DNA of 64,000 bases from Methylophilus methylotrophus DSM 46235 = ATCC 53528. GTDB lineage: Bacteria; Pseudomonadota; Gammaproteobacteria; Burkholderiales; Methylophilaceae. Each line of letters starts with the position of its first letter. The stretch's first letter is position 1. Positions 2,914 to 18,211 of this stretch are shown piece after piece. The DNA lies in NCBI RefSeq assembly GCF_000378225.1, contig NZ_KB905141.1, forward strand, positions 573,326-637,325, read 5' to 3'. The notes beneath the pieces are model-generated. The model was not told the origin of the DNA, did not search any database, and saw only the letters and a program-made list of their open reading frames with translations. Made by a program: the position numbers and the translations under genes.

Positions 2914-2989
2914 TCCTCAATAGCTCAGTCGGTAGAGCGCCGGACTGTTAATCCGTAGGTCCCTGGTTCGAGCCCAGGTTGAGGAGCCA
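2914..2989 (+). tRNA. tRNA-Asn (anticodon GTT)
   Basis: A 76-base cloverleaf: acceptor stem TCCTCAA/TTGAGGA, D arm with AGCTCAGTCGGTAGAGC, anticodon stem CGGAC-TGTTAAT-..., T arm with GGTTCGAGCC, discriminator G and an encoded CCA (2987-2989). The anticodon GTT reads Asn codons. Its 3' end is the insertion site of the mobile element that follows, and the recombinase gene on the opposite strand ends inside this tRNA gene. Confidence 0.97.
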
Positions 2990-4573
2990 ACTTGATGCAA
3001 AAGTGGGCACTGTTAAATCAGTGCCCATTTTTTTCGTCTCAACAATCGCACTTGCCATGGCGTCATAACTTCCTAATATGGTCGCCTCTCCATCTTTAAG
3101 CATTATTTGCTGGATCAGCCCTTTTAAGTATTGTTTGCCGAAATTAGATTTTCGGTCTGCGAGCTTTTCTTTCAGAACTTGCGCAAATACTTTGATGTTC
3201 TTTTGATTCAGTGCATCGACTGGCATATCCTGCTGCCGCTTCATGGCTGCGATCTCAAGCAAAATATCCTGTCGTCTGGTCTGGATGCTTCTTGATCTGG
3301 CTTGCAAGGTTTCATCCATCGGCAAAAAGCCCTTTTCCACCGCTTCAAACAATCGCTCATTGCGCTGGTTTAGTTCTTCCAGTTCCTTTTGTAGCGGTTG
3401 AGCGTGATTGGTTTGCTCTTTGTTGCGCTGGACAACCCGTTTCCGCATCTCTTGCATCATTGTGGAAACTCGCTCCGGCGTGAAAACCTTGTCTGCAAGG
3501 GTGGTCAGTATGAGATTGTCCAGTTTTTCCATTGGAACAGCAGGCATGGTGCATAAATGATTGCCCTTCCCGATGCGTGTATTGCATTTATAGTACCGAT
3601 AGCGCCCTCCTTTACCCGTTGCCAGTGTCATGCCAGCACCACAGATGCCGCATTTCAATATGCCTGTGAGCAGTGTCGGGGAATTGACCAACCTCGGCGG
3701 CACTTTTGCGGGCGCGCGCTCCGCTCTGCGGATGCGTGCGTCCTCAAACGTGCTCGCCTCGATGATGGCAGGTATCTCGACCTTGATCCATTCCTCAGAT
3801 GGTTTAAGCTCGCCTGTCTTGTTGTTCCGTTTGTTAAAGTAATACTCGCCAATGTAGGCTTTATTGCTAAGCACCTCATGCACACGGCCGCGGTTCCATT
3901 TTTGGGTGCGTAAGCGGATATTTTTATCATTTAGATAGGTAGCAATCTCTTTTGCGCCCATGTGACCGTATTCATTGCCAAACAGGTACAAATGAAAAAT
4001 CTTTTTGACGATTTCAGATTCCACGGGATCAATGTCAATTTTCTTTTTCTTTTTGCCCTTGGCGCCCATGATCTCGATTTCAATCGCCCGATAGCCAAAT
4101 GGTGCGCGTGATCCGTTCATAAATCCGCGTTTGGCATTTTCTTTCATGGCGCGGATGGTGTGCTTGCCGTTCTCTTTGCTTTGGTACTCATCAAACAAGC
4201 TGAAAATCTTGCTCGCCATTTCACCGGCTGGATCGTCACTTGTAATCTGAGTAATTGAAACCAGCTTACAATGCGCCCGCTTCAATCTGCGTTCATAGTT
4301 CAAAAACTCAAACATATCGCGAAAAAAGCGTGACCGACTGTGCACAATGATGGCCTCATAAGGTTCGCTATCGCTTGTAGCGTCTGCAATCATTTGTTGA
4401 AAGACTGGACGCCTGTCATCGGTAGCGGATGCACCTGGCTCGATATATTCCATCGCGACAACATAGCCATTTGCCTGACACCAGTCACGCATTTGATTAA
4501 TCTGATCAGGGATAGATAAATCCTTTTCAGCTTGTCTGACTGTGGAAACTCTCGCATAAAGTGCAACCGCCAT
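2948..4573 (-). CDS. Large serine recombinase (site-specific integrase)
   Basis: 541 residues. The N-terminal resolvase domain (about 2-150) has YARVST with the nucleophile Ser10 and SRSRFFRD in the active-site helix. A recombinase domain follows (about 165-290, NGSRAPFGYRA), then a zinc ribbon with CGICG and a CN/C pair (about 305-350), and a coiled-coil region (about 370-440). Its role is integration and excision of the element between att sites via a phosphoserine intermediate. The last 14 codons, including the stop, lie within the complement of tRNA-Asn (tail WLLNLGSNQGPTD), so the C-terminus is specified by the host tRNA. A GGGCGG-like ribosome site lies eight bases before the ATG. It is the gene nearest the left att site. 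Confidence 0.93.
   Translation of the reverse strand: MAVALYARVSTVRQAEKDLSIPDQINQMRDWCQANGYVVAMEYIEPGASATDDRRPVFQQMIADATSDSEPYEAIIVHSRSRFFRDMFEFLNYERRLKRAHCKLVSITQITSDDPAGEMASKIFSLFDEYQSKENGKHTIRAMKENAKRGFMNGSRAPFGYRAIEIEIMGAKGKKKKKIDIDPVESEIVKKIFHLYLFGNEYGHMGAKEIATYLNDKNIRLRTQKWNRGRVHEVLSNKAYIGEYYFNKRNNKTGELKPSEEWIKVEIPAIIEASTFEDARIRRAERAPAKVPPRLVNSPTLLTGILKCGICGAGMTLATGKGGRYRYYKCNTRIGKGNHLCTMPAVPMEKLDNLILTTLADKVFTPERVSTMMQEMRKRVVQRNKEQTNHAQPLQKELEELNQRNERLFEAVEKGFLPMDETLQARSRSIQTRRQDILLEIAAMKRQQDMPVDALNQKNIKVFAQVLKEKLADRKSNFGKQYLKGLIQQIMLKDGEATILGSYDAMASAIVETKKMGTDLTVPTFASSWLLNLGSNQGPTD
2984..2990 (+). repeat. Putative attL core GAGCCAA
   Basis: This seven-base core covers the last bases of tRNA-Asn plus one base. 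It is matched at 7992-7998; the longer contexts TTGAGGAGCCAA and TTGGAGAGCCAA agree at 10 of 12 positions. Serine integrases use short cores, so this length is plausible, but chance cannot be excluded. Confidence 0.5.
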
Positions 4574-4658
4574 TTTATTTACCGCCCTTCCTTAAAAAGT
4601 CAGTCTTAATTCAATAGTCTTACCTGTACAGAATTTAAGAGATACCACAACGATCTGT

Positions 4659-5189
4659 TCATCTTTCAGCAGCCCAAACTTCATTTTCAGGTTTTATTGG
4701 TGGTGTGATCAATTCTGTTTTGATGTTCTCAACGTCTGGTATTGATTTGACATGCCACCTGATTAATTTGATATTTGCAGAAGCTAATACCTGATTTTTC
4801 TTTTGATCTTGCAATTGCCTCGAAGAGCTTTCATGAGTTGAATCATCAAGTTCAATTACCGCCAAAACAGAAGAATCCTTATTACAAATTACAAAATCAG
4901 CACTCATTCTATTTACGCGATTTATCCAAGACTGATAATCGAAGCCCTTCTTAACTCCTAAAAAGCGTGACAACTGCACTTGTGCCAAAACGATCTTGTC
5001 AGGAAGTGCTTCAATTAGTCGAAAATAGAGTATTTGCTCAGGCTGCGATAGTGGTTTTTTTACATAATAAGGCCATACCTGATCATTATCATTTAATTGC
5101 TGATCCTCTAATGGCTGGTCTTTTTTCTTCAACTTAAGCAATAAAATAAAAACTATTAATACGATTGCAAAGACAATAAAAAAACTCAT
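4659..5189 (-). CDS. Membrane-anchored DUF2726 protein
   Basis: 176 residues: one N-terminal transmembrane helix (about 3-19) followed by a Lys-rich stop-transfer, then a DUF2726 domain (about 45-165). Visible are SQPEQILYFRL at the domain start, the FVICNKDSSVLAVIELDDSTH stretch (given only by its VIELDD core), and a late KLIRWH strand. Known: DUF2726 resembles nuclease-like folds of the restriction-endonuclease type and often sits in mobile or defence contexts. The D/E-x-D pattern is compatible with metal binding, but activity is inference. GAGGGG lies five bases before the ATG. It follows the 41-residue ORF in the same direction after 31 bases. Confidence 0.7.
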   Translation of the reverse strand: MSFFIVFAIVLIVFILLLKLKKKDQPLEDQQLNDNDQVWPYYVKKPLSQPEQILYFRLIEALPDKIVLAQVQLSRFLGVKKGFDYQSWINRVNRMSADFVICNKDSSVLAVIELDDSTHESSSRQLQDQKKNQVLASANIKLIRWHVKSIPDVENIKTELITPPIKPENEVWAAER

Positions 5190-5220
5190 AAATACCCCTC
5201 AATCTAATATAAAACTCTTA

Positions 5221-5346
5221 CTACTCATCTTCTTCTATACGTTGTAACAACTCAGCTAAGATTTCTGGAAAAAACGTGCTAATCAACTGAATCTCAATTT
5301 CTTTCAAACTTTCAGATACAAAATTATGATGAATGACCGCTACCAT
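5221..5346 (-). CDS. 41-residue ORF translationally coupled to the Rep-like gene
   Basis: A short reading frame of 41 residues (MVAVIHHNFV... ending ...LLQRIEEDE) whose ATG overlaps the stop codon of the Rep-like gene by seven bases (ATGGTAG), with AGGTGA just upstream. The product is predicted to be helical and acidic at the C-terminus, with no cysteine or membrane segment. The overlap and operon position argue that it is real and made in proportion to the Rep-like protein. Nothing about its function is recognised; a small regulator of replication or copy number is a guess. Confidence 0.45.
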   Translation of the reverse strand: MVAVIHHNFVSESLKEIEIQLISTFFPEILAELLQRIEEDE

Positions 5347-6413
5347 TCACCTAACCTCATTTCATTGGCTCTGCGGTCAACTTCCTGCTGCCATGTCAGT
5401 GGGTCATGTATTTCAGAAACGATATTGAACAAATGCTGAAACGCTTCATCCATGTATGACTTTTGATTGCCTGAATATAAAACGTCTATTGCCGCCACTC
5501 TTTTGACGTAACCATAAACACTCATTGCAATACGTGTTAATCGCTCATCGTACATATCAAGCGGTTTATGCTCACGCTTGACACCTAAACCTTGAAGCTG
5601 GTTTATTTGCGTTAGCAGATCCAACCATAGCGGATGCATATCCCACCGTGATCGGTTGCTGTCATCTGCTTTAACTCTTAAGGTGGTGTGATTGGTTGAA
5701 AGCAATCGCAAAAGGTCTGCTTGACGTTCATCCAATGATTGCATGGATGAAATGCCTATTTTCCGGAGTTGGTCTTTTCTGACTTGCCATTCAATACGCC
5801 AGACATCCTGATCCATACCCCACAGTTTGAAAAGCCAGCTTTTTTGACTTTGCTCATTGATTTCATCGACTTTGTTATAAACCCTGAGCACCACGTTTTC
5901 AGTGCCGAATTTAAAAGTCTGGACTTTGCCATCCTTGCGAAATTGGCTGTCCTTGGTTGATCGGGATACAAAACTGTCCTCGTCAAAATCGACCACTGGC
6001 AGATGGTAGTCCAAAGCATAGTCAACACGCGACAATCGCTCTGGCTGGGCTTGCATTAACCCCACAGATGCAGCCCAGTTCAAGAAACGTTGATGCAAAT
6101 CGAGCAAGCTGTTATGCCATAAAGCAATACTGCGGAATTTAACGAAAAAATTAGGACGGTTAAATTCGCCAAACTGAATGATGAACACATCATTTTCAAT
6201 CAGGAAGGGATAACCGCTTGATGTGCCATGTGAGGCAAGCAAGAAATCTTCACAACCGAGTTTAATTGGCTTGGGCTTGTTAATCTTAGCCTTGATTAAT
6301 GCCTCTTTCTGGGATGCTAAGTCCACAAAATCAAGTCTGGCCTGATCGAGCGGGATCAAGTAATAGGCACACTCAATTGTGTCGAAGCAGGATAGAAGGA
6401 ACTTGAAAGCCAT
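5340..6413 (-). CDS. Replication initiation protein-like (Rep_trans type)
   Basis: 357 residues. The central part has the pattern of rolling-circle replication initiators of the Rep_trans family: RVDYALDYHLP (about 128-138) with acidic residues after a beta strand, FKFGTENVVLRVYNK (about 168-182, fitting the RxYDK-type strand), and VWRIEWQVRKDQLRK (about 205-219). A nicking tyrosine may be the one in RVYNK. Known: such proteins nick one strand at a double-strand origin. Here it would let the element replicate once excised. It follows the RHH-like gene after six bases and overlaps the 41-residue ORF. The family call rests on motif pattern only and may be wrong. Confidence 0.5.
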   Translation of the reverse strand: MAFKFLLSCFDTIECAYYLIPLDQARLDFVDLASQKEALIKAKINKPKPIKLGCEDFLLASHGTSSGYPFLIENDVFIIQFGEFNRPNFFVKFRSIALWHNSLLDLHQRFLNWAASVGLMQAQPERLSRVDYALDYHLPVVDFDEDSFVSRSTKDSQFRKDGKVQTFKFGTENVVLRVYNKVDEINEQSQKSWLFKLWGMDQDVWRIEWQVRKDQLRKIGISSMQSLDERQADLLRLLSTNHTTLRVKADDSNRSRWDMHPLWLDLLTQINQLQGLGVKREHKPLDMYDERLTRIAMSVYGYVKRVAAIDVLYSGNQKSYMDEAFQHLFNIVSEIHDPLTWQQEVDRRANEMRLGEW

Positions 6414-6419
6414 TTAAAA

Positions 6420-6755
6420 TTACTTCTCTTTACCAACGGATTGGTTGAGATTTAACGAAGCTCTTGATAGCTGCTCATCGGAAATAAAATTTATTTTTTT
6501 AATCGTTTCAGGTGAAAGCTCTTTATACATAGCTTCAATACCAACCTGAATAACTTCATTAATCATTGCTGACACACTACAGTCGGCAAGTTTGGACATG
6601 TTTTCAATGATAATGAATTGCTGAAAAGGGAAGCGATGGCTTCGTTGAATTGAGGCTCCAATATAGGAACTGAAACCTCTACCTTCAATAACCGATGCTA
6701 GATGCTCTGCTTTAGTTGGCAATTCATTATCATCAATATCGTACTGATTGCTCAT
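6420..6755 (-). CDS. Putative ribbon-helix-helix regulator of the element
   Basis: 111 residues. The centre (FPFQQFIIIENMSKLADCSV, then INEVIQVGIEAMYKEL, about 43-80) gives a beta strand followed by two amphipathic helices as in ribbon-helix-helix DNA-binding proteins. There is no signal or membrane segment. GGAGAG lies six bases before the ATG. It is the first gene of the leftward operon and starts 13 bases from a perfect 20-base palindrome located just after a strong promoter, the usual layout of an autorepressor. The fold assignment is inference; it could instead be another small element-encoded regulator. Confidence 0.5.
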   Translation of the reverse strand: MSNQYDIDDNELPTKAEHLASVIEGRGFSSYIGASIQRSHRFPFQQFIIIENMSKLADCSVSAMINEVIQVGIEAMYKELSPETIKKINFISDEQLSRASLNLNQSVGKEK

Positions 6756-6768
6756 TTGGGACTCTCCA

Positions 6769-6788
6769 TGTAACTAAATTTAGTTACA
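6769..6788. promoter_or_regulatory. Palindromic operator
   Basis: TGTAACTAAATTTAGTTACA is a perfect 20-base palindrome lying between the -10 box and the start codon of the RHH-like gene, where a bound protein would block initiation. It most likely binds the product of that gene. Confidence 0.65.
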
Positions 6789-6817
6789 AATTTAATCCCA
6801 GGAAAAAAGAAAGTCAA
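6789..6817 (-). promoter_or_regulatory. Promoter of the recombinase/rep operon
   Basis: On the minus strand, TTGACT (6817-6812), exactly 17 bases, then TAAATT (6794-6789). The palindromic operator abuts the -10 box. It would drive the RHH-like, Rep-like, 41-residue, DUF2726 and possibly recombinase genes. Confidence 0.65.
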
Positions 6818-6870
6818 TATTGATGTGTTAGATTTTTTTATAGATTAGTATGTGAATGTATTTTAAGCCC

Positions 6871-6889
6871 CCCGTGTTACATAAACGGG
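6871..6889. repeat. Short inverted repeat between divergent element genes
   Basis: CCCGT and ACGGG around a nine-base AT-rich loop, in the 176-base gap between the two divergent transcription units. It could be a leader hairpin or part of a replication origin; nothing else supports either. Confidence 0.3.
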
Positions 6890-6931
6890 ATAATGATTTA
6901 AACCACTAAGCATTTAAAAAGTAGGTAATAA

Positions 6932-7885
6932 ATGCCACGCAGAAGAAAATCGAAACATACTGGATCTCTTCTAGATACAGCTCTTAATGAAGACTGGAAA
7001 TTTTCATTAGTAGCTAGCGGCCTAATATTTATCATAGCAGGTTCAATTCCCTTATTGTTTCAAGGGACAGTTTTATCCATAACAGCTTTGTTGCTGCAAA
7101 AGCTTGGGTATCTGCTTGGTGTTATGTTTCTAGGCATATCAGTCATCAAAGTTATTGCATTACTTTTACTAGCTAAAAAGTCAAACCTAAACTATGTATC
7201 AAATAACTTAAGACAAGAATCAAGGACAAATCTTTCAAAAGAAATTAATCTAGAGCCCGCTCTGGAGACCATATTCAATCCGAAGATTTCTTCATTTAGA
7301 GAGAATCGAGAATGGAGCCTGAAATTAATTCAAGAGTTGGAATGGAAGCTTTTTGAAGAGCTTTGTGTAAGCCTCTACAAAGAGAATGGATTTAAAGCTG
7401 AAGCTACGCCTCTAGGTGGGGATGGTGGAATCGATATAAAGCTCTTTAAGGGTGTGTCAAATACGCCATTGGCAATTGTTCAGTGCAAATCGTGGAGCCA
7501 AAAAGTTGGCGTGAAGCCTATAAGAGAGTTCTTGGGTGTAATGAAGCACGAAGGAGTATCTCACGGCTTTTATTTAACGACCAGTGACTTCACACCTGAA
7601 GCAGAATACGTGGCAAACCAAAATGGAATCAGGCTAGCAAATGGTCATAAGATCCTTAAAATGATACAAAAACTAAATCAAGAAACACAAAACAAGCTCT
7701 ATAGCAAAATAGCTCACGGTGATTATAAAACTCCAACATGTCCAAGTTGTGGCGTGAAAATGCAACGTAGAAAAAGTGCTAATCGCGAATTCTGGGGATG
7801 TCGTTATTTCCCTAAGTGTAGACAAAGGCTCAAATTAAGATCAGTTGATATCCCAGACAAAAGTCCAAACTATTGGCAGTATTGA
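6932..7885 (+). CDS. Membrane-linked Mrr-type restriction endonuclease with C-terminal zinc finger
   Basis: 317 residues in three parts. Two transmembrane helices (about 24-48 and 55-88); an Mrr_cat nuclease domain (about 135-235) with LSLYKENGFKAE-like entry, GGDGGIDI supplying the catalytic Asp and QCKSW supplying Gln-x-Lys; and a topoisomerase-type zinc ribbon (CPSCG...GCRYFPKC, about 267-298). Known: Mrr proteins cut methylated or foreign DNA, and this TM-Mrr-zinc layout recurs in bacterial genomes. Inferred: a defence or superinfection-exclusion function carried by the element. AGG sits about six bases before the ATG. Transcribed away from the rest of the element; codon use is AT-rich compared with flanking genes. 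Confidence 0.82.
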   Translation: MPRRRKSKHTGSLLDTALNEDWKFSLVASGLIFIIAGSIPLLFQGTVLSITALLLQKLGYLLGVMFLGISVIKVIALLLLAKKSNLNYVSNNLRQESRTNLSKEINLEPALETIFNPKISSFRENREWSLKLIQELEWKLFEELCVSLYKENGFKAEATPLGGDGGIDIKLFKGVSNTPLAIVQCKSWSQKVGVKPIREFLGVMKHEGVSHGFYLTTSDFTPEAEYVANQNGIRLANGHKILKMIQKLNQETQNKLYSKIAHGDYKTPTCPSCGVKMQRRKSANREFWGCRYFPKCRQRLKLRSVDIPDKSPNYWQY

Positions 7886-7991
7886 ACAGCCGTTTACACA
7901 AAATTAAGGACAGCCTCCTGAAAACAAACACCTACAGTACATGTGATATCAAAGTCTTAATCATCCAGTTATGAGTTTTATCTGAATTGGA

Positions 7992-7998
7992 GAGCCAA
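7992..7998 (+). repeat. Putative attR core GAGCCAA
   Basis: This is the second copy of the core present at the tRNA-Asn 3' end. It is followed at once by AAATAAAAAAAGCC and a terminator hairpin, so joining the tRNA to this point would recreate a tRNA gene with its own terminator. Confidence 0.5.
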
Positions 7999-8002
7999 AT
8001 AA

Positions 8003-8032
8003 AAAAAGCCTTGCAGAAATGCAAGGCTTTTT
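8003..8032. terminator. Bidirectional terminator, probably the original tRNA-Asn terminator
   Basis: AAAAAGCCTTGC and GCAAGGCTTTTT (12-base arms) around the loop AGAAAT. It ends the nuclease transcript and that of the stress-type gene on the other strand; its position just after the proposed att site suggests that it once terminated tRNA-Asn. Confidence 0.88.
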
Positions 8033-8082
8033 GCTTTTACGCAGTTGCAAATCCTATTCAGTGATTTTTAAACCTATCGATC

Positions 8083-8589
8083 TCAGGCACCAGCAATCAC
8101 TGGCGTATTCCATTCATTTTGAAATCGACGGGCATCCTCATCATTCTTAGGATTAAGGCCAATGAGAATACCTCCGTCTTTCACCTCCGCTTCGTATTCC
8201 TTCAAAGTATCCTCCGGGATACCCCAGCCAATCAAGGCACCCACCAAGCCAGCGGTTACCCCGCCTGCCCCGGCACCGGCAACACCAGCTGCTAATGGGC
8301 CAGCAATAACCAATCCTAGCCCTGGCAAAGCAAGCACGGTACCTGCAGCTGCGATGGCCGCTGCAATCGCTCCTGCCGTGGCGCCAATCGCGCCACCCAC
8401 AGCCGCGCCTTCGGCCGCTTTATTGCCCACCTCTGTTTCCAATGTGGCATTTTTACCGTAATAACGCTCACGCGTCTCTTCGGACATGATCACGTTAATA
8501 TCATTCGCGCTGTAACCCGCTTGGGTAGCGGCCAGATAGGCGCGCTCTGCACTGTCTTGATCTCTAAATAAACCCGTTACTGTAGCCAT
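8083..8589 (-). CDS. Glycine-zipper membrane protein, general stress protein 17M-like
   Basis: 168 residues. The N-terminal alpha/beta segment (VTGLFRDQDSAERAY..., about 4-45, ending RYYG) resembles the general stress protein 17M-like domain. A long Gly/Ala-rich hydrophobic stretch (about 55-115) forms one or two glycine-zipper helices, and a short mixed domain ends the protein. The start at 8589 is chosen because GGAG lies six bases upstream; upstream TTG and ATG codons are too close to it. Known: relatives are stress-induced, function unclear. The N-terminal 42-residue segment aligns without gaps with the protein encoded at 11833-12390, on the other side of the oxidase operon. Confidence 0.7.
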   Translation of the reverse strand: MATVTGLFRDQDSAERAYLAATQAGYSANDINVIMSEETRERYYGKNATLETEVGNKAAEGAAVGGAIGATAGAIAAAIAAAGTVLALPGLGLVIAGPLAAGVAGAGAGGVTAGLVGALIGWGIPEDTLKEYEAEVKDGGILIGLNPKNDEDARRFQNEWNTPVIAGA

Positions 8590-8692
8590 ATTCATCTCCA
8601 AAAATTGTTTCTTATGTAAGAAGTTTCAGTATATGAAAGGGCGTAAGCGGCGACGAGTGCGATGGCGCTGATATGGTTGTAGGATAAATAAC

Positions 8693-8723
8693 ATCAAATC
8701 ATCATTTTCCTCCTTGATTTGAT
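8693..8723. promoter_or_regulatory. Inverted repeat in the divergent promoter region
   Basis: ATCAAATCA and TGATTTGAT separated by 13 bases, between the stress-type gene and the cbb3-like operon. Each arm contains an FNR-like half site (TTGAT/ATCAA), but the spacing is not that of an FNR box, so another dimeric regulator is more likely. Confidence 0.4.
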
Positions 8724-8839
8724 ACTAGCGTTTGAATTCCTACAAGGCTTTCAGTATCTGCTGATAAGCATCCCAAAAGGGATAGGCTAAGGTAGCAATT
8801 CAATACCTCTCCCACTACGCGCTCAAGCAAAAAAACACC

Positions 8840-9085
8840 ATGTTCGCTAATTCATACATTGTTATTCTGCTAGGGCTGCTAGTCGGCCTACCTACTCTGC
8901 TATTGCTGTTTATGAGTATCCGCGCTGGTCATTTTGATCAGCTGGATCAAGCTGCACATATGCCTTTTGATGAGGAGGACTTGCGGTATTTGCGGCCGTG
9001 GGAATCTGATGCGCAACGCTTTGAACGTGTGCGGCAACATGGGGCGGCACTGGCGCCGAGACGGGAGTGGGCAAGATGGCTGTAA
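8840..9085 (+). CDS. CcoS-like cbb3 oxidase assembly protein
   Basis: 81 residues: one N-terminal transmembrane helix (about 5-27) followed by RAGHFDQLDQAAHMPFDEED, close to the W-x-x-x-x-GQFDDLE...D pattern of CcoS/FixS. The C-terminal tail of about 25 Arg-rich residues is longer than in typical CcoS (45-60 residues). Known role: cofactor (heme and copper) insertion into the catalytic subunit. It is first in an operon with a cbb3-like subunit I, whose start lies within its last codons. A second, canonical ccoS lies at 56743-56880. Confidence 0.65.
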   Translation: MFANSYIVILLGLLVGLPTLLLLFMSIRAGHFDQLDQAAHMPFDEEDLRYLRPWESDAQRFERVRQHGAALAPRREWARWL

Positions 9086-10590
9086 ATCCCAGGCAGGCGG
9101 AGCATGCCATTACCAAAGAGGCCCAGGCCAGCAGCGCAATTGACCATAGCCGAATCGGTCTGAGCGTGGCTGAAACTGCTGCGATTGACCGCTCTTCACG
9201 CGGGCCTGTGCTTTTGTGTTTTTTCCTGTCGATTATCTGGTTGCTGGTGGGTACCGTGTTTGGCGATATCAGCAGTTTTAAGTTTGACCGCCCTGACCTG
9301 CTTACCTCACAACCCTATTTCACTTTTGGCAGGCTCAGACCTGCGCATTTGAATGTCATGGTCTATGGCTGGGCTTCAACGGCCATGTTTGGCGTGTCGT
9401 TATGGCTAATGCCTCGGTTGTGCCGTGTACAGCTCAAAATACCTGCGGTGGCGATGGCGGGTATTGTGTTGTGGACCATAGGCGTGGCTGTGGGTGTCTG
9501 GCTTTTGCTTGACGGGGTGAGCGATGGATTGGAATGGCTGGAATTTGATCATCGTTCGGCAGACCCGCTCATGGCCGCGGGTGCAGCCTTGGTGGGTGCT
9601 TCGGTGTGGAAAACACTGCTTAACCGTCAGGTGAGCCACTTGTATGTGTCCATCTGGTATGTCGCTTCTTCTTACCCCTGGTTTTTGATTATTTTTACGG
9701 CTGGCAATTTGCCGGTGTATCAGGGTGTTGAGTCGGCCGCGGTGAACTGGTTTTTTGCCCACAATGCCCTGGGGCTTTGGCTCACTACCATCAACCTGGG
9801 ACTAATTTATTACCTGATGCCCAAGATCATTGGGCGGCCGGTGTATTCATATTGGTTATCCCTCATAGGCTTTTGGGGGCTGGCGCTGTTTTATGCGCTG
9901 AACGGCATGCATCATTTAATCGGCGGCCCTATTCCATCGTGGATGATTGCCACCTCCATTACCGCCAGCATCATGATGATTATCCCGGTCGTCGCGGTGG
10001 GGATTAACCAGCATATGACAATTGTTGGCCGGTTTGGCGCCATGCGTTACTCTCCTGCCCTGACCTTGCTGGTGCTGGCAGCCATGTCGTATACCGCGGT
10101 GTCTTTGCAGGGGATTTTAACGGCCCTGGTCAGTGTCAACCGCATCACGCACTTTACTCATTGGACCATTGCCCACTCACATCTAGGCCTGTATATGTTT
10201 GTCACGCTGTCATTGTTTGGCGGCATTTATTACATTTTGCCGCGGTTATTGGGCAGGGAATGGCCTAGCCGCAACCTGATTCGCGCGCATATCTTACTGG
10301 TGGGCTTTGGCATGGTGTTGTACGTGGTTGCATTGGGCATCGGCGGAGTACTGCAAGGCCTGCACTTGCTGGATGCCAACAGTTCGTTTGAAGCTTCGGT
10401 CAATGCAACCAAACCCTGGCTACTGATGCGCAGCGTTTCAGCCATCATTATTACACTAGGGCATGTACTGTTTGCGGTGCATATCGCCTGGTTATGGTTA
10501 CTGCGGGATAAAACCGGGCCTGAGCAATCCCCTTTCTTTTATGTACGGCCTATCCTGGTGAAATCACCTACGAAAGTGCCGGGGAGATAA
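9076..10590 (+). CDS. cbb3-like cytochrome oxidase subunit I (second copy, divergent)
   Basis: 504 residues, about 12 transmembrane helices. Conserved histidines of heme-copper oxidases are visible: LRPAHLNVMVYGW (low-spin heme ligand), FAHNALGLW and NGMHHLIGGP (copper-B ligands), and HWTIAHSHLGLYMF (heme ligands). It reduces oxygen to water in the inner membrane. Compared with the canonical ccoN at 55184-56620 it has an N-terminal cytoplasmic extension of about 40 residues and different loops. The ATG at 9076 is preferred (GGGAG eight bases upstream); GTG at 9067 is an alternative. It overlaps the CcoS-like gene by ten bases and precedes the monoheme subunit by three. Oxygen affinity and pumping are not predictable from sequence here. 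Confidence 0.85.
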   Translation: MAVNPRQAEHAITKEAQASSAIDHSRIGLSVAETAAIDRSSRGPVLLCFFLSIIWLLVGTVFGDISSFKFDRPDLLTSQPYFTFGRLRPAHLNVMVYGWASTAMFGVSLWLMPRLCRVQLKIPAVAMAGIVLWTIGVAVGVWLLLDGVSDGLEWLEFDHRSADPLMAAGAALVGASVWKTLLNRQVSHLYVSIWYVASSYPWFLIIFTAGNLPVYQGVESAAVNWFFAHNALGLWLTTINLGLIYYLMPKIIGRPVYSYWLSLIGFWGLALFYALNGMHHLIGGPIPSWMIATSITASIMMIIPVVAVGINQHMTIVGRFGAMRYSPALTLLVLAAMSYTAVSLQGILTALVSVNRITHFTHWTIAHSHLGLYMFVTLSLFGGIYYILPRLLGREWPSRNLIRAHILLVGFGMVLYVVALGIGGVLQGLHLLDANSSFEASVNATKPWLLMRSVSAIIITLGHVLFAVHIAWLWLLRDKTGPEQSPFFYVRPILVKSPTKVPGR

Positions 10591-10593
10591 GGC

Positions 10594-11187
10594 ATGACAC
10601 GGGTCTATATCCTGCTCATGGGAGCGCTTGCCACAGTGATTTTTGCATTGATGGTACTGGTGATTTTGCCTAAAAGCATGTTGTCAGGGGTGCAGCCCCC
10701 CGCGGAACTCAAACCCCTGACAGCCCAGGAGTTGAGAGGCAGGCAGGTGTATATCGAAAACGGCTGCATTTATTGTCATACCCAACAGGTCAGGGACACC
10801 AATTTCACGCAGGATGTTGCCAAAGGCATGGGTAACCGACCGTCTGTCCCGGCAGATTATGTGTATGACCAGCCGCATTTGCTAGGCACCATGCGTACCG
10901 GGCCGGATTTATTCAACGTAGGTAGCAGATTGCCAGACAAAAAATGGCATTTATTGCATTTATACCAACCCAGATCACTGGTGCCGTGGTCCATCATGCC
11001 TGCTTTTCCTTTTTTATTCGAGCATAAGGACACCCCTGCACCGGACGATGTGGTGATTGAAACCGGACAGGCAGAGGCTGGCGCTATTATCGCCACAGAA
11101 GATGCCAAAGCGCTCGTGGCTTACCTGCTTGCACTCAAGCATGACTATGCCATGCCTAATATTCAAAAGGAGGCCGCAGATGAGTGA
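10594..11187 (+). CDS. CcoO-like monoheme cytochrome c subunit
   Basis: 197 residues: an N-terminal membrane anchor (about 4-27) and one periplasmic cytochrome c domain with CIYCHTQQVR (heme binding) and SIMPAFPF (Met ligand), plus GPDLFNVGSR and YQPRSLVPWSIMP segments typical of CcoO. It passes electrons to subunit I. It is slightly shorter than the canonical CcoO at 54547-55173 and has a QQ instead of SQM after the heme motif. Three bases after subunit I; overlaps the next gene by eight bases, so the operon is translationally tight. Confidence 0.85.
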   Translation: MTRVYILLMGALATVIFALMVLVILPKSMLSGVQPPAELKPLTAQELRGRQVYIENGCIYCHTQQVRDTNFTQDVAKGMGNRPSVPADYVYDQPHLLGTMRTGPDLFNVGSRLPDKKWHLLHLYQPRSLVPWSIMPAFPFLFEHKDTPAPDDVVIETGQAEAGAIIATEDAKALVAYLLALKHDYAMPNIQKEAADE

Positions 11188-11836
11188 TGCCCACCTCAAA
11201 AATAGCCATCAGCAACCGGTGCAAAACGAGATATCAGAGCTGGCTTTGCATGACAAAGAGATGCGTGAGATTGCTGAGCCCTATGAAGCCCCAACCACTG
11301 GCCCAAAATGGTTTTATTTATTTATGGTAATCAGCCTGGCCATTGGGTCATTTTACCTGGGCCGCCATATGGGCAAGTTGGATGCCAGCATCCATATTGG
11401 TTTTTTTGAAAAAAACAAACCGGCGGACACCTCGGCAGTCACTGCTGCACAATCCCCTGCCTCCGGGGCCTCCCTGTTTACCAGCAAATGTGCCAGTTGC
11501 CATCAGGCGGATGGCAAGGGCTTGCCTGGGGCTTTTCCGCCGCTGGCTGAGTCGGAATTTGTGCTGGGAAATCCTGAGCGGCTGATCAGTATTGTGCTCA
11601 AGGGATTGACCGGGCCGCTCGAAGTGGAAGGTCAATCTTTCAATGGCACCATGCCTGCCTGGGAGGACCAGATGAGTGACCAGGAGCTGGTGGCAGTGAT
11701 TAATCATATCCGCAACAAACTGGGCAATAACCAGGCAAGTGAAATCCAGCTGCAAGACGTGCAAAAAGTGCGCGAGCAAACCGCCAGCCGCACCCAGCCC
11801 TGGCAGGCAGATGAACTCGAGGTGGCTTATCCATGA
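11180..11836 (+). CDS. Membrane-anchored monoheme cytochrome c (CcoP-like position)
   Basis: 218 residues: a soluble N-terminal tail (about 1-45), one transmembrane helix (about 46-63), and one cytochrome c domain (about 95-180) with CASCHQADGKG and the Met ligand in GTMPAWEDQMSD. Known: canonical CcoP has two heme domains, so this subunit lacks one. AAGGAGG six bases before ATG 11180 decides the start; a longer frame reaches upstream but lacks a ribosome site. Its ATG overlaps the end of the CcoO-like gene and its stop overlaps the start of the next gene (ATGA). Likely the electron entry subunit of this oxidase. Confidence 0.82.
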   Translation: MSDAHLKNSHQQPVQNEISELALHDKEMREIAEPYEAPTTGPKWFYLFMVISLAIGSFYLGRHMGKLDASIHIGFFEKNKPADTSAVTAAQSPASGASLFTSKCASCHQADGKGLPGAFPPLAESEFVLGNPERLISIVLKGLTGPLEVEGQSFNGTMPAWEDQMSDQELVAVINHIRNKLGNNQASEIQLQDVQKVREQTASRTQPWQADELEVAYP

Positions 11837-12390
11837 ACGCCCAATCGCCAGTTGCACCTCGTACCGAATCATTTACCGTGTCTGCTTTTTTCATTACCGA
11901 GCAAGCGATTAACCACGCCATCATGGCGTGCCTGCATCGCGGTATTCCGCGCGACCTGATTGATGTTGCGGTCTCCAGTAAAGCCTCTTCGAAATTTTAC
12001 GGTGGCGCCGCAGGCCCCAACCGTGATGGCTGGTTTTCCTGGACCGGACGCGGCGCGCTGGCCGGTTTGTTAATCTCTTCTGCCATGGCATTGGTGATTT
12101 TGCTGTTCGCCGGGTATGAGGCATCAAAACCCATGGCGATCATCCAGTTATTGGGGCCAGACCTTGGCATCCTGATCGGTGCTGCACTTGGCGCATTATA
12201 TGGCTGGCTAAAACCTGGGGATACCCGGCCACAGATGCAGCGTGCGCTAAACCGGGGAGATGCGGCCCTGGTGCTGGTGCATCTGCAACCTGCCCCTGAA
12301 GCCGACGAGGTGAAGAAAGTACTGGAACAACATGGCGGCGAACAGGTGCTAGTGGAAAAAGATCATCTTAAAGTGGTGGGAGCTGAGTAA
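11833..12390 (+). CDS. Membrane protein related to the 17M-like stress protein, in the oxidase operon
   Basis: 185 residues. The N-terminal 42-residue segment from VSAFF to FYG matches, without gaps, the segment from VTGLF to YYG of the protein encoded at 8083-8589 (conserved V, F, A, G, I, V, S, Y, G at equivalent places). Two hydrophobic helices (about 65-90 and 103-127) follow, then a mixed C-terminal domain. The four-base ATGA overlap with the cytochrome gene indicates coupled translation. Its function is unknown; position argues for a role in assembly, stability or sensing of the oxidase. Its 3' end overlaps the convergent copD by 23 bases. Confidence 0.6.
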   Translation: MNAQSPVAPRTESFTVSAFFITEQAINHAIMACLHRGIPRDLIDVAVSSKASSKFYGGAAGPNRDGWFSWTGRGALAGLLISSAMALVILLFAGYEASKPMAIIQLLGPDLGILIGAALGALYGWLKPGDTRPQMQRALNRGDAALVLVHLQPAPEADEVKKVLEQHGGEQVLVEKDHLKVVGAE

Positions 12391-13198
12391 GCATGGCCGC
12401 AGCCAGCAATAGCAGCACCGCAAAAAAGAACTCCAGACTCAAGCCATCATCGTAGCGTTTACCGTCAAACTGTATTTGTGGCAGTAATTGCCGCAATCGC
12501 CAGGCGCACAGCATGACCGCCAGGAGCAGGCCACCTTTCACTGCTACCAGCGCCCCGTAAACCAGGCTTAAGCCAGCATTCTCAAAAAAGGCACTCGCCA
12601 AGCGCAATCCTCCGGTTGCCAGTCCAAGCAAAAAAACGGGCAGAATCAAGGTAGAGAATGCCTGCAAGGTGGGCTGTTCAACCAAGCCTGGGTGGGCAAA
12701 TCTGCCCAGCATAATCATCACTAGGCCACCCCACCACAGCAGCACACAACTTATATGCACCATATGCAGTACCCAGGTCACCATATTCCCTGCATCTGCA
12801 GCATGGCTATTCATCGTGAGGCAGGTCACCATTCCGAGGATATTCAACAGCATCCAGCGGCCATGATGGATAGTACGTATGGCAAGTATTAATAATAAGC
12901 TAAATACCAGCCAGTAGCGGCCGTAACTGGTTTGCAGCAGCAAAGGCACAATATCTTGCCAGGCAAGCGACAAGGCTTCGCCATCCGCGTCCGCCAACTG
13001 GAAAAACGTGCTATTGAGGCTCAATGCCACACCCGCCAGGCCAATCAACACCAGACTGCCTATCATCCTGTGCAATTTGGGCATCTTCAAGCGGAAATAA
13101 TAGCGCCATAGATAAATACCACTAAGCATGGCCACCGCCACCAGCGCAAAGGCACGGCCTAGCATGCCATCAAGCAAATGTGAAGAAAGCGGCAACAT
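12368..13198 (-). CDS. copD: CopD-family copper transport membrane protein
   Basis: 276 residues with about eight transmembrane helices and the CopD domain near the C-terminus (HMVHISCVLLWWGGL, about 140-155, containing the His and Trp typical of the family). Known: CopD works with periplasmic CopC in copper uptake or resistance. The ATG at 13198 lies three bases after the copC stop; longer frames into copC exist but have no better ribosome site. Next to an oxidase operon, a role in copper supply for copper-B is likely. Convergent overlap with the upstream oxidase operon gene. Confidence 0.8.
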   Translation of the reverse strand: MLPLSSHLLDGMLGRAFALVAVAMLSGIYLWRYYFRLKMPKLHRMIGSLVLIGLAGVALSLNSTFFQLADADGEALSLAWQDIVPLLLQTSYGRYWLVFSLLLILAIRTIHHGRWMLLNILGMVTCLTMNSHAADAGNMVTWVLHMVHISCVLLWWGGLVMIMLGRFAHPGLVEQPTLQAFSTLILPVFLLGLATGGLRLASAFFENAGLSLVYGALVAVKGGLLLAVMLCAWRLRQLLPQIQFDGKRYDDGLSLEFFFAVLLLLAAAMLTQLPPL

Positions 13199-13200
13199 CC

Positions 13201-13551
13201 TCAGCGCAACTCGAACCGGAATTGACCGCGCTGTGCGTGCCCATCGCGTGCAAGCACCCGCCAACGGACAACATACGTGCCTGGCAACAGTTTGGGTAAG
13301 TCACCATGCACGGTCTTGCCATCCACCCTGACTTTCAAAACCTGCCAAGCCTGGTCCTTTTCTTTGACTAACTCTATCCTGCTAAACTCAGACTCAACAG
13401 GCGCAGAAAATGTGAGGGTAAGATGACCGGGAGAATGTCCCAAGACCTGGTCACGCGCAGGGTTGGAAGAGATCAACCTGGTGTGGCACTCGGCCACAGA
13501 GGAAAACAGGCTCAGCCCTATCAGGCACATGCACCACCATAAACGGACCAT
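13201..13551 (-). CDS. copC: CopC periplasmic copper-binding protein
   Basis: 116 residues: a signal peptide (about 1-22, cleavage near AEC/H) and a CopC beta-sandwich. The histidine next to the mature N-terminus (CHTRLISSNPARDQ) and the late DGH motif (about 104-106) are the usual Cu(II) ligands. It carries copper in the periplasm and hands it to CopD, which is encoded immediately downstream. The two genes form a short operon facing the cbb3-like oxidase genes. Confidence 0.85.
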   Translation of the reverse strand: MVRLWWCMCLIGLSLFSSVAECHTRLISSNPARDQVLGHSPGHLTLTFSAPVESEFSRIELVKEKDQAWQVLKVRVDGKTVHGDLPKLLPGTYVVRWRVLARDGHAQRGQFRFELR

Positions 13552-13754
13552 CCCTCTTCTCCATCAAACCCATCGTATGATTGATTAGACGCGCTCAGTC
13601 ATAAATGTTCAGTAGTACACCACAACCTCCTACATATCTATCGGAGCCATCCCCCTTATTGCCGCCTGCCCGCCTGCATACAATACAATTTTATATTTAT
13701 ACCAATGATCTGGCGAGAGATCCCGCTTGCTCATCGGTCCTGAGAAGGGAAATT

Positions 13755-14948
13755 ATGCGCGCACTTACCTATCATGGTAGTAAAGATGTCCGGGTCGAGA
13801 CTGTGCCTGACCCAGTGATCCAATATGCCGACGATGTGATTCTCAGGGTAACGGCAACGGCCATCTGTGGCTCAGACCTGCATCTGTATCGTGGCAAAAT
13901 TCCAATGGTCAAGGATGGCGATATTCTTGGCCATGAATTTATGGGTGTTATCGAAGAAGTCGGTTCTGCTGTGGATCAAGTCCAAAAAGGAGACCGTGTC
14001 ATTATCCCGTTTGTGATTGCCTGTGGACACTGCTTTTTTTGCGAAAAAAGCCTGTACGCCGCCTGCGAGAACACCAATCCTGGCCGTGGTGCCAGCCTCA
14101 ACAAAAAATCCGTCAAACCGCCAGCGGCCTTGTTTGGTTACAGCCATTTATATGGCGGCGTGCCAGGGGGACAGGCTGAGCTGGTACGCGTGCCACGTGG
14201 CAATGCCGGGCCATTTAAAGTGCCAGGATCGCTAGCGGATGAACAGGTATTGTTCCTGACAGATATCTTGCCTACCGGTTACCAGGCCGTTTTAAATGCT
14301 GACGTCGTGCCAGGCTCCACCATTGCGATTTTTGGCGCCGGGCCGGTAGGCCTGATGGCAGCCGCCTGTGCCCGCATGCTGGGTGCCGAAACCATTTTCA
14401 TGATAGATCACCATCAATACCGCCTGGATTATGCCTCACAGGTATACGACACTATCGGCATTAATTTTGACGAGGTGGAAGACCCGGCGGAGTTCATTCT
14501 CCAGCACACCCAGCATCGCGGCGTGGATGCCAGCATTGATGCTGTCGGTTTTGAAGCCAAGGGGAGCATGGTTGAAACGGCGCTCACCACCTTGAAACTC
14601 GAAACCAGCAGTGGCGAGACCCTGCGCCAGTGTATTGCCGCCACCCGTCGCGGCGGAATTATCAGCATTCCAGGCGTTTATGCCGGTTTTATCCATGCTT
14701 TCCTGCTAGGTGATGCCTTTGACAAGGGCCTCACTTTCAAAATGGGGCAAACTCATGTGCATGGTTATCTCTCAGAATTACTGCGCTATATTGAGGAGGA
14801 TAAATTGCGTCCTGCGGATATTATCACTCACCGCATGTCACTCGAAGATGCTGCAAAAGGCTATGAAATTTTCAATAATAAAGAGGAAGATTGCCGCAAA
14901 GTGGTCCTGACGCCAGGCATAGACGTTTCCGCTGCCCCCAGACATTAA
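13755..14948 (+). CDS. Zinc-dependent alcohol dehydrogenase family protein
   Basis: 397 residues of the medium-chain dehydrogenase superfamily. Catalytic zinc ligands are visible in [12 protein letters not shown] (Cys near 38) and [12 protein letters not shown] (His-Glu near 60); structural zinc cysteines in [16 protein letters not shown] (about 90-106); and the nucleotide-binding loop [12 protein letters not shown] (about 190-201). The architecture matches the formaldehyde dehydrogenase-like subgroup, which in a methylotroph could act in C1 or aldehyde oxidation, but substrate is not determined. GAGAAGGGA lies just upstream of the ATG chosen; the frame extends 50 codons further without a ribosome site. 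Monocistronic by position. Confidence 0.85.
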
Positions 14949-14992
14949 ACGCCCAAATTCACACAGGCAGGCATCTCAGGCAAACTTAATGT

Positions 14993-15006
14993 GACCAATC
15001 ATGGTC
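14993..15006. promoter_or_regulatory. Small inverted repeat upstream of the bd oxidase operon
   Basis: GACCA-ATCA-TGGTC lies 81 bases before cioA. It is a candidate operator; no regulator can be named. Confidence 0.3.
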
Positions 15007-15086
15007 AATGCTGATAGTATTTGCGCGGAAGTCGCCTCCATCCGGCTGAAGCACGCAATGGGTCGCAAGTGATGTAAAGGACAAAC

Positions 15087-16517
15087 ATGTCTGAATTGGC
15101 ATTGACGTTATCAAGAATCCAGTTTGGGTTCACCATCTCGTTTCACATCGTGTTTCCGGCAATCACCATCGGTTTGGCAAGCTATCTTGCGGTGTTAGAA
15201 GCCAGCTGGTTAAAAACCAGACAAACGGTTTATCTCGATTTATACCATTTCTGGGTCAAATTATTTTCATTGTGTTTTGGCATGGGCGTGGTTTCGGGGC
15301 TGGTCATGGCTTATCAATTTGGCACCAACTGGTCAGGCTTTTCCAATGTCGCAGGTAGCGTGACCGGCCCATTGCTGGCTTATGAAGTGTTGACAGCTTT
15401 TTTCCTCGAAGCCGGGTTTCTGGGCGTCATGCTGTTTGGCTGGAACAAGGTTGGGCCCGGATTGCACTTTACTGCCACGTTGATGGTAGCTATAGGCACG
15501 CTGGTGTCGGCCACCTGGATACTTGCATCCAACAGCTGGATGCAAACGCCGCAAGGCTTTGAGCTGGTCAATGGCAAAGTCATCCCCGTCGATTGGTTAA
15601 AAATCATCTTCAATCCCTCCTTCCCTTATCGCCTGTTGCATATGGTGATTGCCGCCTATCTGGCGACAGCGCTCTTTGTTTCTGCGGCAGCTGCCTGGCA
15701 ACTCTTGCGGGGAAAAGATAATGCAGCCGTACGCAAAATGATGTCCATGGGCTTGTGGCTCATTTTATTGATAGCCCCACTGCAAGTGGTGATAGGCGAC
15801 ATGCACGGGCTCAATACCCTTCAACACCAGCCTGCTAAAATTGCAGCCATAGAAGGACACTGGGAAAACCGGGCCAATGAACCTACCCCCTTGATCCTGA
15901 TGGCCTGGCCAGACATGGCCCGGGAAAAAAACCATTTCGCGCTGGAAATCCCCGTGCTGGGCAGCCTGATCCTGCGTCACTCGTTGACCGAGCAGATTCC
16001 TGCGCTCAAGGAGTTTCCTGCCGATGAAAGGCCGAATGCAACCATTGTGTTCTGGACCTTCCGTATCATGGTAGGCCTGGGCTTGCTCATGATCCTGCTG
16101 GCCGTGACTTCACTCTGGTTACGCTATAAAAATCAGTTGTACCAGCATAAAGCCTTCCTGCGGTTTGCAGTCGCCATGGGACCGGCGGGCGTCATTGCCA
16201 TCCTGGCAGGCTGGTTCACCACTGAAATCGGCCGCCAGCCCTGGGTGGTGTATGGTGTATTGCGCACCGCCGATGCCGTGACGCCGCACACGACCAGTGA
16301 AGTGGCTGTGACATTAACACTTTTTGTCTTGATTTACCTGGCGGTATTCGGCATGGGGACCATGTATGTGCTAAGGTTAATCAATACCGGTCCCAAAACC
16401 GGCGAAGCCTTGCAAGGGGATGCCATCTCCATTAATCCCAGTGATGTGGATGAGTTTGCCCTGGCACCTGAGTTTCACCCCGATGCCAAGACACCTTCTG
16501 CCGGAAAGGATCAATAA
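15087..16517 (+). CDS. cioA: Cytochrome bd oxidase subunit I, CIO type
   Basis: 476 residues, about nine transmembrane helices. SFHIVFP (His20, heme b595 ligand), LHMVIAAY (His near 186, heme b558) and GRQPWVVYG (about 385) identify CydA/CioA. The quinol-binding Q loop between helices 6 and 7 is short, the mark of the cyanide-insensitive CioA group as opposed to E. coli CydA. It oxidises quinol and reduces oxygen without pumping protons. The ATG follows AAAGGAC by six bases. It is directly joined to cioB and a small third gene; cydC/D-type maturation genes are not in the window. Confidence 0.9.
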   Translation: MSELALTLSRIQFGFTISFHIVFPAITIGLASYLAVLEASWLKTRQTVYLDLYHFWVKLFSLCFGMGVVSGLVMAYQFGTNWSGFSNVAGSVTGPLLAYEVLTAFFLEAGFLGVMLFGWNKVGPGLHFTATLMVAIGTLVSATWILASNSWMQTPQGFELVNGKVIPVDWLKIIFNPSFPYRLLHMVIAAYLATALFVSAAAAWQLLRGKDNAAVRKMMSMGLWLILLIAPLQVVIGDMHGLNTLQHQPAKIAAIEGHWENRANEPTPLILMAWPDMAREKNHFALEIPVLGSLILRHSLTEQIPALKEFPADERPNATIVFWTFRIMVGLGLLMILLAVTSLWLRYKNQLYQHKAFLRFAVAMGPAGVIAILAGWFTTEIGRQPWVVYGVLRTADAVTPHTTSEVAVTLTLFVLIYLAVFGMGTMYVLRLINTGPKTGEALQGDAISINPSDVDEFALAPEFHPDAKTPSAGKDQ

Positions 16518-17519
16518 ATGGACTTATCACTGGTATGGGCAATCATTATATTGTTTGGCATCATGATGTACATCATCATGGATGGCTTTGATCTCGGCAT
16601 CGGCATCCTGTACCCCTTTTTCCAGGAAAAAGATGACAGGGACTTAATGATGAATACTGTGGCCCCGATCTGGGACGGTAACGAAACCTGGCTGGTGCTT
16701 GGTGGCGCAGGCCTGCTGGCGGCGTTTCCGCTGGCTTATTCGGTGATTTTAAGTGCCCTTTCGCTGCCTTTACTGTTTATGCTCATGGCGCTCATTTTCC
16801 GCGGGGTGGCCTTTGAGTTCAGGTTCCGCGCCACGGATACGGAGCGGCACTTCTGGGACAAGGCTTTTCTGGGCGGCTCGATTGCAGCTACCTTTTTCCA
16901 GGGCATAACGCTGGGTGCTTACCTGCAAGGCATTAAAATGGCGAATCAGGCCTATGCTGGCGGGCCGCTGGACTGGATTTCGCCCTTTTCGCTGTTTACC
17001 GGCTTAGGCCTGCTGGTGACTTACGCGCTGTTAGGCAGTACCTGGCTGATTTTTAAAACCACTGGCGAACTGCAAGCCACGTGCTACAAACTCTCGCAAC
17101 GTATTTCCATAGTGCTGTTCGCCATTATCATCATTATTAGCATCTGGACCCCCCTGATGGACAGCCGCATTGCGGAGCGCTGGTTCACGCTGCCCAACCT
17201 ACTCTGGCTGTCACCTGTGCCCTTGCTGGTCGCATTGGTTTTTTACAAGCTACAAGCCGCCCTCAAGGCCAAGGCCGAAACCAGCCCATTCATCTATACG
17301 CTGTGTCTGGTTCTGCTTGGGTATGCAGGTTTAGGTATCAGCATCTGGCCCAATATTATCCCGCCAGAAATGACCATACAGGCCGCCGCCGCACCGCCAC
17401 AAAGCCAAGCCTTCGCGCTGGTAGGTGCTGTCATCATTATCCCGATTATCCTGATCTATACCGCCTGGGGTTATTATGTGTTCCGCGGCAAGGTCAAACC
17501 AGGTGAGGCCTACCATTAA
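16518..17519 (+). CDS. cioB: Cytochrome bd oxidase subunit II, CIO type
   Basis: 333 residues with about eight transmembrane helices. MDGFDLGIGILYPF (about 20-33) and WDGNETWLVLGGAGLLAAFP (about 53-72) are the conserved CydB segments. It forms the heterodimer with CioA. There are no intervening bases between the cioA stop and this ATG, and its TAA overlaps the ATG of the next small gene by one base, so the three are one translationally linked unit. Confidence 0.92.
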   Translation: MDLSLVWAIIILFGIMMYIIMDGFDLGIGILYPFFQEKDDRDLMMNTVAPIWDGNETWLVLGGAGLLAAFPLAYSVILSALSLPLLFMLMALIFRGVAFEFRFRATDTERHFWDKAFLGGSIAATFFQGITLGAYLQGIKMANQAYAGGPLDWISPFSLFTGLGLLVTYALLGSTWLIFKTTGELQATCYKLSQRISIVLFAIIIIISIWTPLMDSRIAERWFTLPNLLWLSPVPLLVALVFYKLQAALKAKAETSPFIYTLCLVLLGYAGLGISIWPNIIPPEMTIQAAAAPPQSQAFALVGAVIIIPIILIYTAWGYYVFRGKVKPGEAYH

Positions 17520-17671
17520 TGCAGCAAGCCCCTAAACGCGACACAACCAAAAGCAGTCTGGCTAAACGGCTAGGATGGATGATCCTGATCTGGTTGGCCA
17601 GCATTGCTACGCTGGCCGCCATGAGTCTGCTCATGAAACTATTAATGAAGGCAGCAGGGTTTAACAGTTAA
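17519..17671 (+). CDS. 50-residue DUF2474-type small subunit of the bd oxidase
   Basis: A reading frame of 50 residues starting in a TAATG overlap with cioB. Basic N-terminus (KRDTTKSSLAKRLGW), then one transmembrane helix (MILIWLASIATLAAMSLLMK) and a short end LLMKAAGFNS. The LGW-x-x-LIWLAS pattern fits DUF2474 proteins, which accompany CioAB operons much as CydX accompanies CydAB. Known for CydX: it stabilises the oxidase. Inferred: the same role here. Short enough to be missed by automatic calling. Confidence 0.78.
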   Translation: MQQAPKRDTTKSSLAKRLGWMILIWLASIATLAAMSLLMKLLMKAAGFNS

Positions 17672-17736
17672 ATTGCCGACTTGGCAAAGCCTTTCATTAA
17701 GAAAATACCTGAAAATAATTGGAAGGGAGTTGAGAA

Positions 17737-18189: not shown

Positions 18190-18211
18190 GGCCGAGAAAG
18201 GATAAAATCGC

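Follow-up and report, generated by a model that had tools for sequence, protein, structure and literature searches.

Does the second cbb3-like gene block of Methylophilus methylotrophus DSM 46235 encode another ordinary cbb3 oxidase, or an enzyme of a different kind? The block occupies positions 8840-12390 of a stretch of 64,000 nucleotides from contig NZ_KB905141.1 (positions 573,326 to 637,325, forward strand), called here the window. The window also holds a canonical cbb3 set on the minus strand at 51661-59212, whose CcoN, CcoP and CcoS are recognized by model matches and whose CcoG, CcoH, CcoO and CcoI are assigned by reading the open reading frames (ORFs). A first-pass annotation had described the block as a second, divergent C-type oxidase, and this description is sustained here, with its subunit I placed outside CcoN in both trees calculated. 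With a probability of roughly 0.75, the operon would encode a compact cytochrome c:O2 oxidoreductase from a separate subfamily of C-family (cbb3-like) oxidases, having its own CcoS, a copper supply by CopC/CopD and a regulation without FNR box.

The operon is filled by five abutting or overlapping ORFs, and both the ORFs and their Pfam matches confirm the gene order of that annotation, namely CcoS-like protein, subunit I, monoheme CcoO-like protein, anchored monoheme cytochrome and membrane protein with two transmembrane (TM) helices:

8602..8839, no strand: upstream intergenic region, with no FNR box at up to 1 mismatch
8840..9085, plus strand: CcoS/FixS-like heme-insertion factor (Pfam FixS, PF03597, 24.6 bits against a cut-off of 23.1; tblastn 41-52% in 6 close relatives)
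9067..10590, plus strand: subunit I of a non-canonical C-family oxidase (Pfam COX1, 2.7e-75; ccoN model, trees and residue alignment)
10594..11187, plus strand: CcoO-like membrane-anchored monoheme cytochrome c (Pfam FixO, PF02433, 1.2e-34; ccoO model, 115 of 201 bits)
11174..11836, plus strand: anchored monoheme cytochrome c, in place of diheme CcoP (Pfam Cytochrome_CBB3, PF13442, 2e-11; ccoP model positions 107-206)
11833..12390, plus strand: fifth protein, two TM helices between two alpha-beta halves (DUF1269-like by sequence, at 8.2e-5 yet under the Pfam cut-off; ActD-like by predicted fold)

The window has CcoS as a gene of its own, overlapping the subunit I ORF by 19 bases, and the start of the cytochrome c was taken as the ATG at 11174, inside a longer ORF listed from 11057. 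The cut-offs of the canonical NCBIfam models are far from being reached (222 against 583 bits for ccoN, 115 against 201 for ccoO and 46 against 180 for ccoP), whereas the CcoN of the canonical set scores 777 bits. Each of the two operon cytochromes has a single CXXCH, and genes for CcoQ, CcoG and CcoH are absent from the ORFs at 8840-12390, so that the reported lack of these proteins and of the second CcoP heme is correct for this operon; for CcoQ there is no space, because the CcoO-like and cytochrome c ORFs overlap.

A scan of genome contigs revealed at least 562 stretches encoding a relative, which rules out a single-locus oddity. From these, 80 clade loci were kept, and 35 canonical loci served as control. 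The 80 loci cover nine phyla (Pseudomonadota, Gemmatimonadota, Verrucomicrobiota, Bacteroidota, Ignavibacteriota, Myxococcota, Bdellovibrionota, Thermodesulfobacteriota (Dadabacteria) and Omnitrophota), many of them as metagenome-assembled genomes. In a 95-row tree, built with 50 clade and 32 CcoN rows from the 96 and 67 available in the alignment, the clade (98) and the canonical CcoN (100, Shimodaira-Hasegawa-like approximate likelihood ratio test, SH-aLRT) are separate, and the same is observed in a 56-row tree drawn from those 95 after removing long-branch rows (99 and 100, respectively). A placement of subunit I inside ordinary CcoN clades, which would have refuted that annotation, was not found. 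An ordinary CcoN paralogue is rejected by these two trees and the signature residues described below. Judged by sequence, then, this is a real C-type oxidase subfamily found in many phyla, and the idea of one divergent oxidase holds for its separateness but was too narrow, the enzyme belonging to a widespread subfamily.

The same separation is seen in the ccoN model scores, obtained for 50 of the 80 clade genomes, where the divergent copies reach 213-285 bits and the canonical ones at least 614, apart from a CcoN piece of 147 bits in G330 and the paralogue L190 with 94 bits. This last protein (G332:C262:14226-15395) has lost one histidine position of CuB, the tyrosine of the cross-link and ligands of the hemes, and is probably not catalytic. 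In some hosts, such as Alcaligenes faecalis (G325), the divergent gene is present two or three times. Closer to the window, subunit I matches of at least 400 bits occur in 13 of 150 genomes of its family, and its own genome is the only operon carrier among the 22 genus genomes listed. The relatives at 70-77% identity are from Methylobacillus, other genomes of the same family and Massilia alkalitolerans, and those at 44-48% from Cupriavidus, Azoarcus, Paracoccus and Paraburkholderia.

The active-site residues were compared in an alignment of 96 clade and 67 CcoN rows, numbered as P. stutzeri CcoN (3mk7_A), which omitted L002-L005, L007, L010, L013, L078, L084, L121, L181, L185 and L191 (near copies, duplicates, fragments and a poor outgroup). 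H60, H207, H257, H258, H345, H347, Y251, Y223, N289 and Y317 are kept in 96/96 clade rows. These include the six histidine ligands of heme b, heme b3 and CuB, all in C-family positions and with the window included, and the cross-link tyrosine (Tyr251, on a separate helix). Also, E122 is conserved in 93 and S240 in 92 of the 96 rows. On the other hand, E323, a glutamate in 67/67 CcoN, is replaced by Q in 94/96 clade rows (H once, T once), and H243, kept in 64/67 CcoN, is G in every clade row. In the window, by alignment to 3mk7_A, three of these positions are:

9868..9870, plus strand: Gly268 codon, at the position of P. stutzeri CcoN His243
9892..9894, plus strand: Tyr276 codon, at the position of the cross-link Tyr251
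10108..10110, plus strand: Gln348 codon, at the position of CcoN Glu323

The residue set for O2 chemistry is complete in the aligned sequences, with two positions (E323 and H243) exchanged in concert, and an O2 reductase function of the clade is well supported by these residues. H243 presumably has a proton-path role, and the exchange of both residues would make proton delivery or pumping differ in detail from that of cbb3. In PMC5492636, which cites Muntyan 2015, a Glu in the active centre is called mandatory for authentic cbb3 enzymes; we infer that this residue is E323. Beside this clade, a second CcoN-like group under the ccoN cut-off (L135-L138, L140-L143 and L149) has E323 as Q, H243 kept and Y317 as A, the L137 and L138 loci carrying also a partial second subunit I.

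The compact composition of the operon is not particular to the window. The hemes could be counted in 73 of the 80 loci (5 end early and 2 are fragments), and in 67 of them the 2.1 kb that follow subunit I encode exactly two hemes c; in 5 more a multiheme ORF comes next and adds its hemes to these two. The third subunit has one heme in 72/73 loci, the sole diheme one being L091, and a one-heme entry is the rule for the predicted proteins of this sample. Moreover, in 84 loci, taking the first possible start, the subunit I ORFs have a median of 138 residues ahead of the low-spin histidine, compared with 60 in 3mk7_A, and 62/84 have an N-terminal stretch of at least 115 residues. Aligned, these 62 extensions have several columns conserved in at least 90% of rows, and a TM stretch with a CcoS-like motif is present in 20 of the 21 rows listed, L026 being the one without it. 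Pfam FixS matches 29/62 extensions at E <=0.1 (best 2.1e-5), and a CcoS profile from canonical clusters gives at least 5 bits in 30/62, compared with none of the shuffled copies (50 listed) and 0/285 internal segments. Counting the remaining members of the 62 as fusions through their alignment with the matched ones, CcoS is predicted to be fused to subunit I in many clade members.

The contrast in FNR boxes between the operon and the canonical set, noticed previously, is also real. Allowing up to one mismatch, no FNR box is found across 6736-14404 of the window, whereas perfect boxes are located upstream of the canonical ccoN (56713-56726) and of an fnr-like gene (49899-49912). A 9-bp inverted repeat upstream of the operon (8693-8723) has no counterpart in relatives, no shared 9-12-base k-mer is common to 4 or more of the upstream regions of 7 relatives, and the promoter scan was uninformative (2 found versus 5.6 in shuffles; 7 versus 5.4 in the terminator scan). 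Because the regulation of the operon would proceed without a recognizable FNR box, a simple shortage of oxygen is probably not the condition that the enzyme serves. A different oxygen affinity or electron donor, as proposed in the first-pass annotation, is possible.

Regarding copper, two genes are convergent with the operon:

12368..13264, minus strand: CopD-like membrane protein (30-33% to CopD-like genes that relatives have in this position)
13201..13551, minus strand: CopC (PF04234, 9.1e-22)

The proposed tie to copC/copD stands for the sublineage of the window, where the block CcoS-N-O-c-fifth gene with convergent copD/copC is kept in 7/7 genomes (the window and 6 close relatives) while the flanks vary. 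Across the clade it does not stand, as CopC adjoins 3/80 loci (0/35 in controls), and other loci have SCO or a P-type ATPase. SCO neighbours are found in 41/80 clade and 0/35 control loci, a family named here C3 in 40/80 and 0/35, and P-type ATPases in 20/80 and 29/35, where CcoI is usual; ActB, of alternative complex III, adjoins 12/80 and 0/35. The neighbour markers were mostly picked from clade loci, which biases this and the following neighbour comparisons. The CopD family was matched by Pfam in 3 of 120 downstream neighbours, and a CopC/CopD-specific system for the whole clade is rejected by the 3/80 loci. Also, CcoG is beside 0/80 clade and 31/35 canonical loci, and it is above cut-off in 34/35 genomes with CcoN (G336: a piece) and in 0/15 without CcoN. 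From these distributions we infer an exchangeable copper module and a divergent oxidase that would not need CcoG.

The C3 family (L061:5853-6464 and about 40 other loci) consists of multi-helix membrane proteins with conserved Met and His encoded beside SCO, with no Pfam match at 0.01 and no PDB match with E < 1, and it is a candidate copper-insertion factor. Alternative complex III genes adjoin the oxidase at L030, L042, L046, L052, L054, L065, L067, L070, L073, L077, L083 and L097, which suggests supercomplexes between alternative complex III and an oxidase partner of C-type.

Taken together, in the proposed mechanism a cytochrome c donor would deliver electrons to the monoheme cytochrome c, from which they would go to the CcoO heme, to heme b and finally to heme b3-CuB, where O2 would be reduced to water. 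CcoS would act as the dedicated heme-insertion factor, and the adjoining CopC/CopD pair would supply copper for CuB.

Several observations weigh against this proposal. Forcing the sublineage of the window to the CcoN side costs 25.8 log units, and with a p value of 0.044 in the approximately unbiased test its rejection is moderate. The trees do not settle the root position, and the catalytically broken L190 sits inside the clade on a long branch of the 95-row tree. Moreover, the CopD-like protein of the window has no Pfam match at 1e-3, and CopC/CopD could handle copper unrelated to the oxidase.

A narrower version of this explanation, possible but clearly the less probable, is that the oxidase serves to respire amid poisons of heme-copper enzymes (sulfide, NO, perhaps cyanide) or to drain electrons from the oxidation of sulfur compounds, with E323Q and H243G changing the chemistry in the active site or close to it. 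Sulfur genes (SQR, persulfide dioxygenase, TauE, SLAC1/TDT, sulfite oxidase, TsdA) are beside 17/80 clade and 1/35 control loci, and NnrS, flavohemoglobin or truncated globin, as NO-defence genes, beside 5/80 and 1/35, these counts being unions of marker lists of which most markers, taken singly, are not significantly different from controls. In Massilia alkalitolerans, SQR-, TsdA- and TauE-like genes and cydAB surround the same block, and a bd-type oxidase follows the operon in the window. Pfam tallies of 117 upstream and of 120 downstream neighbours have, among the first 25 families of each list, Rrf2, SQR-type, BLH, TauE, NnrS, SCO, SLAC1 and sulfite-oxidase in 3-8 proteins each. These sulfur and NO genes hint at respiration under heme-copper poisons. 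However, besides the bias in choosing the markers, the neighbours vary among lineages and no sulfur marker adjoins the operon in the window. Downstream of N-O-c, two Paraburkholderia plasmids encode a P-type ATPase, a molybdopterin oxidoreductase and a cytochrome c. An extended version, in which a second C-type subfamily of many phyla, having CcoS as a part of subunit I or coupled to it, one-heme entry, exchangeable copper modules and no Glu323, would keep respiration going while sulfide or NO poisons the ordinary heme-copper oxidases, is a tentative proposal.

A nitric oxide reductase instead of an oxygen reductase is very unlikely. Cytochrome c-dependent NO reductases (NorBC) are not known to have the cross-link tyrosine, which is present in all 96 clade rows, and no NorQ/NorD-type gene was noticed among the listed neighbour families (first 25 per list), although the NO-defence genes at 5/80 loci would fit such a function and cbb3 enzymes are reported to reduce NO (PMC8780969).

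It is more improbable still that subunit I and its partners merely modify the canonical cbb3, in the manner of the Pseudomonas orphan CcoN subunits. The window does contain the canonical set, and a canonical CcoN is also present in 35/50 host genomes, but the divergent operon has its own O, c and CcoS, and 15/50 hosts (perhaps 14, as G330 among them has a CcoN piece) lack a CcoN above cut-off, including Burkholderia sp. Nafp2/4-1b (G338), which is also without CcoG. Finally, an ordinary CcoN that drifted without acquiring a separate function is likewise highly improbable, since, despite the 222 bits still given by the ccoN model, the signature residues are common to 96 rows, the clade is separate and the operon partners are kept in many phyla.

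The fifth protein deserves separate consideration. Its AlphaFold model (6 sequences, mean predicted local distance difference test score, pLDDT, of 75) shows a pair of TM helices flanked by two alpha-beta halves, and the top three Foldseek matches are ActD chains (E between 1.5e-3 and 3.6e-2, with no match reaching 1e-3). Superposition on 6btm_D with VIA-align gives a Z of 8.6 with a root-mean-square deviation of 7.3 over 141, compared with Z of 8-9.9 over ~80 residues for PII-type and other folds. A PDB sequence search found nothing under E 0.1, and the sequence profiles give no support for kinship with ActD (1.3% and 16.6% by hhalign). The divergent gene preceding the operon (8083-8601) encodes a DUF1269-like protein related to the fifth protein, with 96% in hhalign; an earlier match of 100% was circular, both profiles having been made from the same sequences, and is not used. 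Then, the fifth protein is alike to ActD of alternative complex III in predicted fold and nearer by sequence to the DUF1269-like protein, and the fold resemblance in the model is real enough to note. Also, a dormancy protein with an ActD-like fold is reported in PMC7856521.

On one side of the operon, 2948-7885 holds a serine recombinase (CcrB-like, 136 bits, under cut-off) and genes of 38-41% GC without NCBIfam matches. The recombinase and these genes suggest an integrated mobile element next to the operon, which is present in 1/22 listed genus genomes. On the other side, 13605-20440 contains an alcohol dehydrogenase (best model formaldehyde dehydrogenase, under cut-off), the bd-type oxidase cydAB and a two-subunit molybdenum hydroxylase.

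Compared with the cbb3 oxidase of P. stutzeri (CcoNOQP; 3MK7), the divergent enzyme shares the ligands of subunit I, the cross-link tyrosine, most K-path residues, a CcoO-like subunit and CcoS. It differs in a subunit I identity of about 31-33%, in E323 to Q and H243 to G, in a one-heme third subunit, in an operon without CcoQ, CcoG, CcoH and FNR box, and in the fusion of CcoS to subunit I predicted for many members. In reviews, the C-family is described as compact (PMC6431628) or with only cbb3 enzymes reported in it (PMC8780969). According to a figure legend in PMC5492636, Muntyan et al. 2015 named an 'unknown group' among the heme-copper oxidases, which is possibly the same group as this clade, given the Glu that PMC5492636 calls mandatory for authentic cbb3. 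By the description in PMC8407424, acidobacterial 'cbb3' operons composed of N, O and a further gene, whose transcripts were not detected below 10 umol/l O2, resemble N-O-c in gene content. No description of the subfamily was found in the literature searched, most subscription journals lying outside its coverage.

Database annotation labels the genes of this clade as cbb3-type. A cbb3 gene is commonly taken as a sign of high-affinity, low-oxygen respiration. For members of this clade such a reading would be unsafe, because the glutamate invariant in CcoN is exchanged and the context of CcoG, CcoP and, in the window, FNR is missing. If, as in the extended version above, the subfamily keeps respiration going under sulfide or NO poisoning, genomes scored as micro-oxic through such a 'cbb3' gene are misread. 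Moreover, the subfamily would be a natural experiment on the roles of E323, H243, the second CcoP heme, CcoQ, CcoG and a free-standing CcoS.

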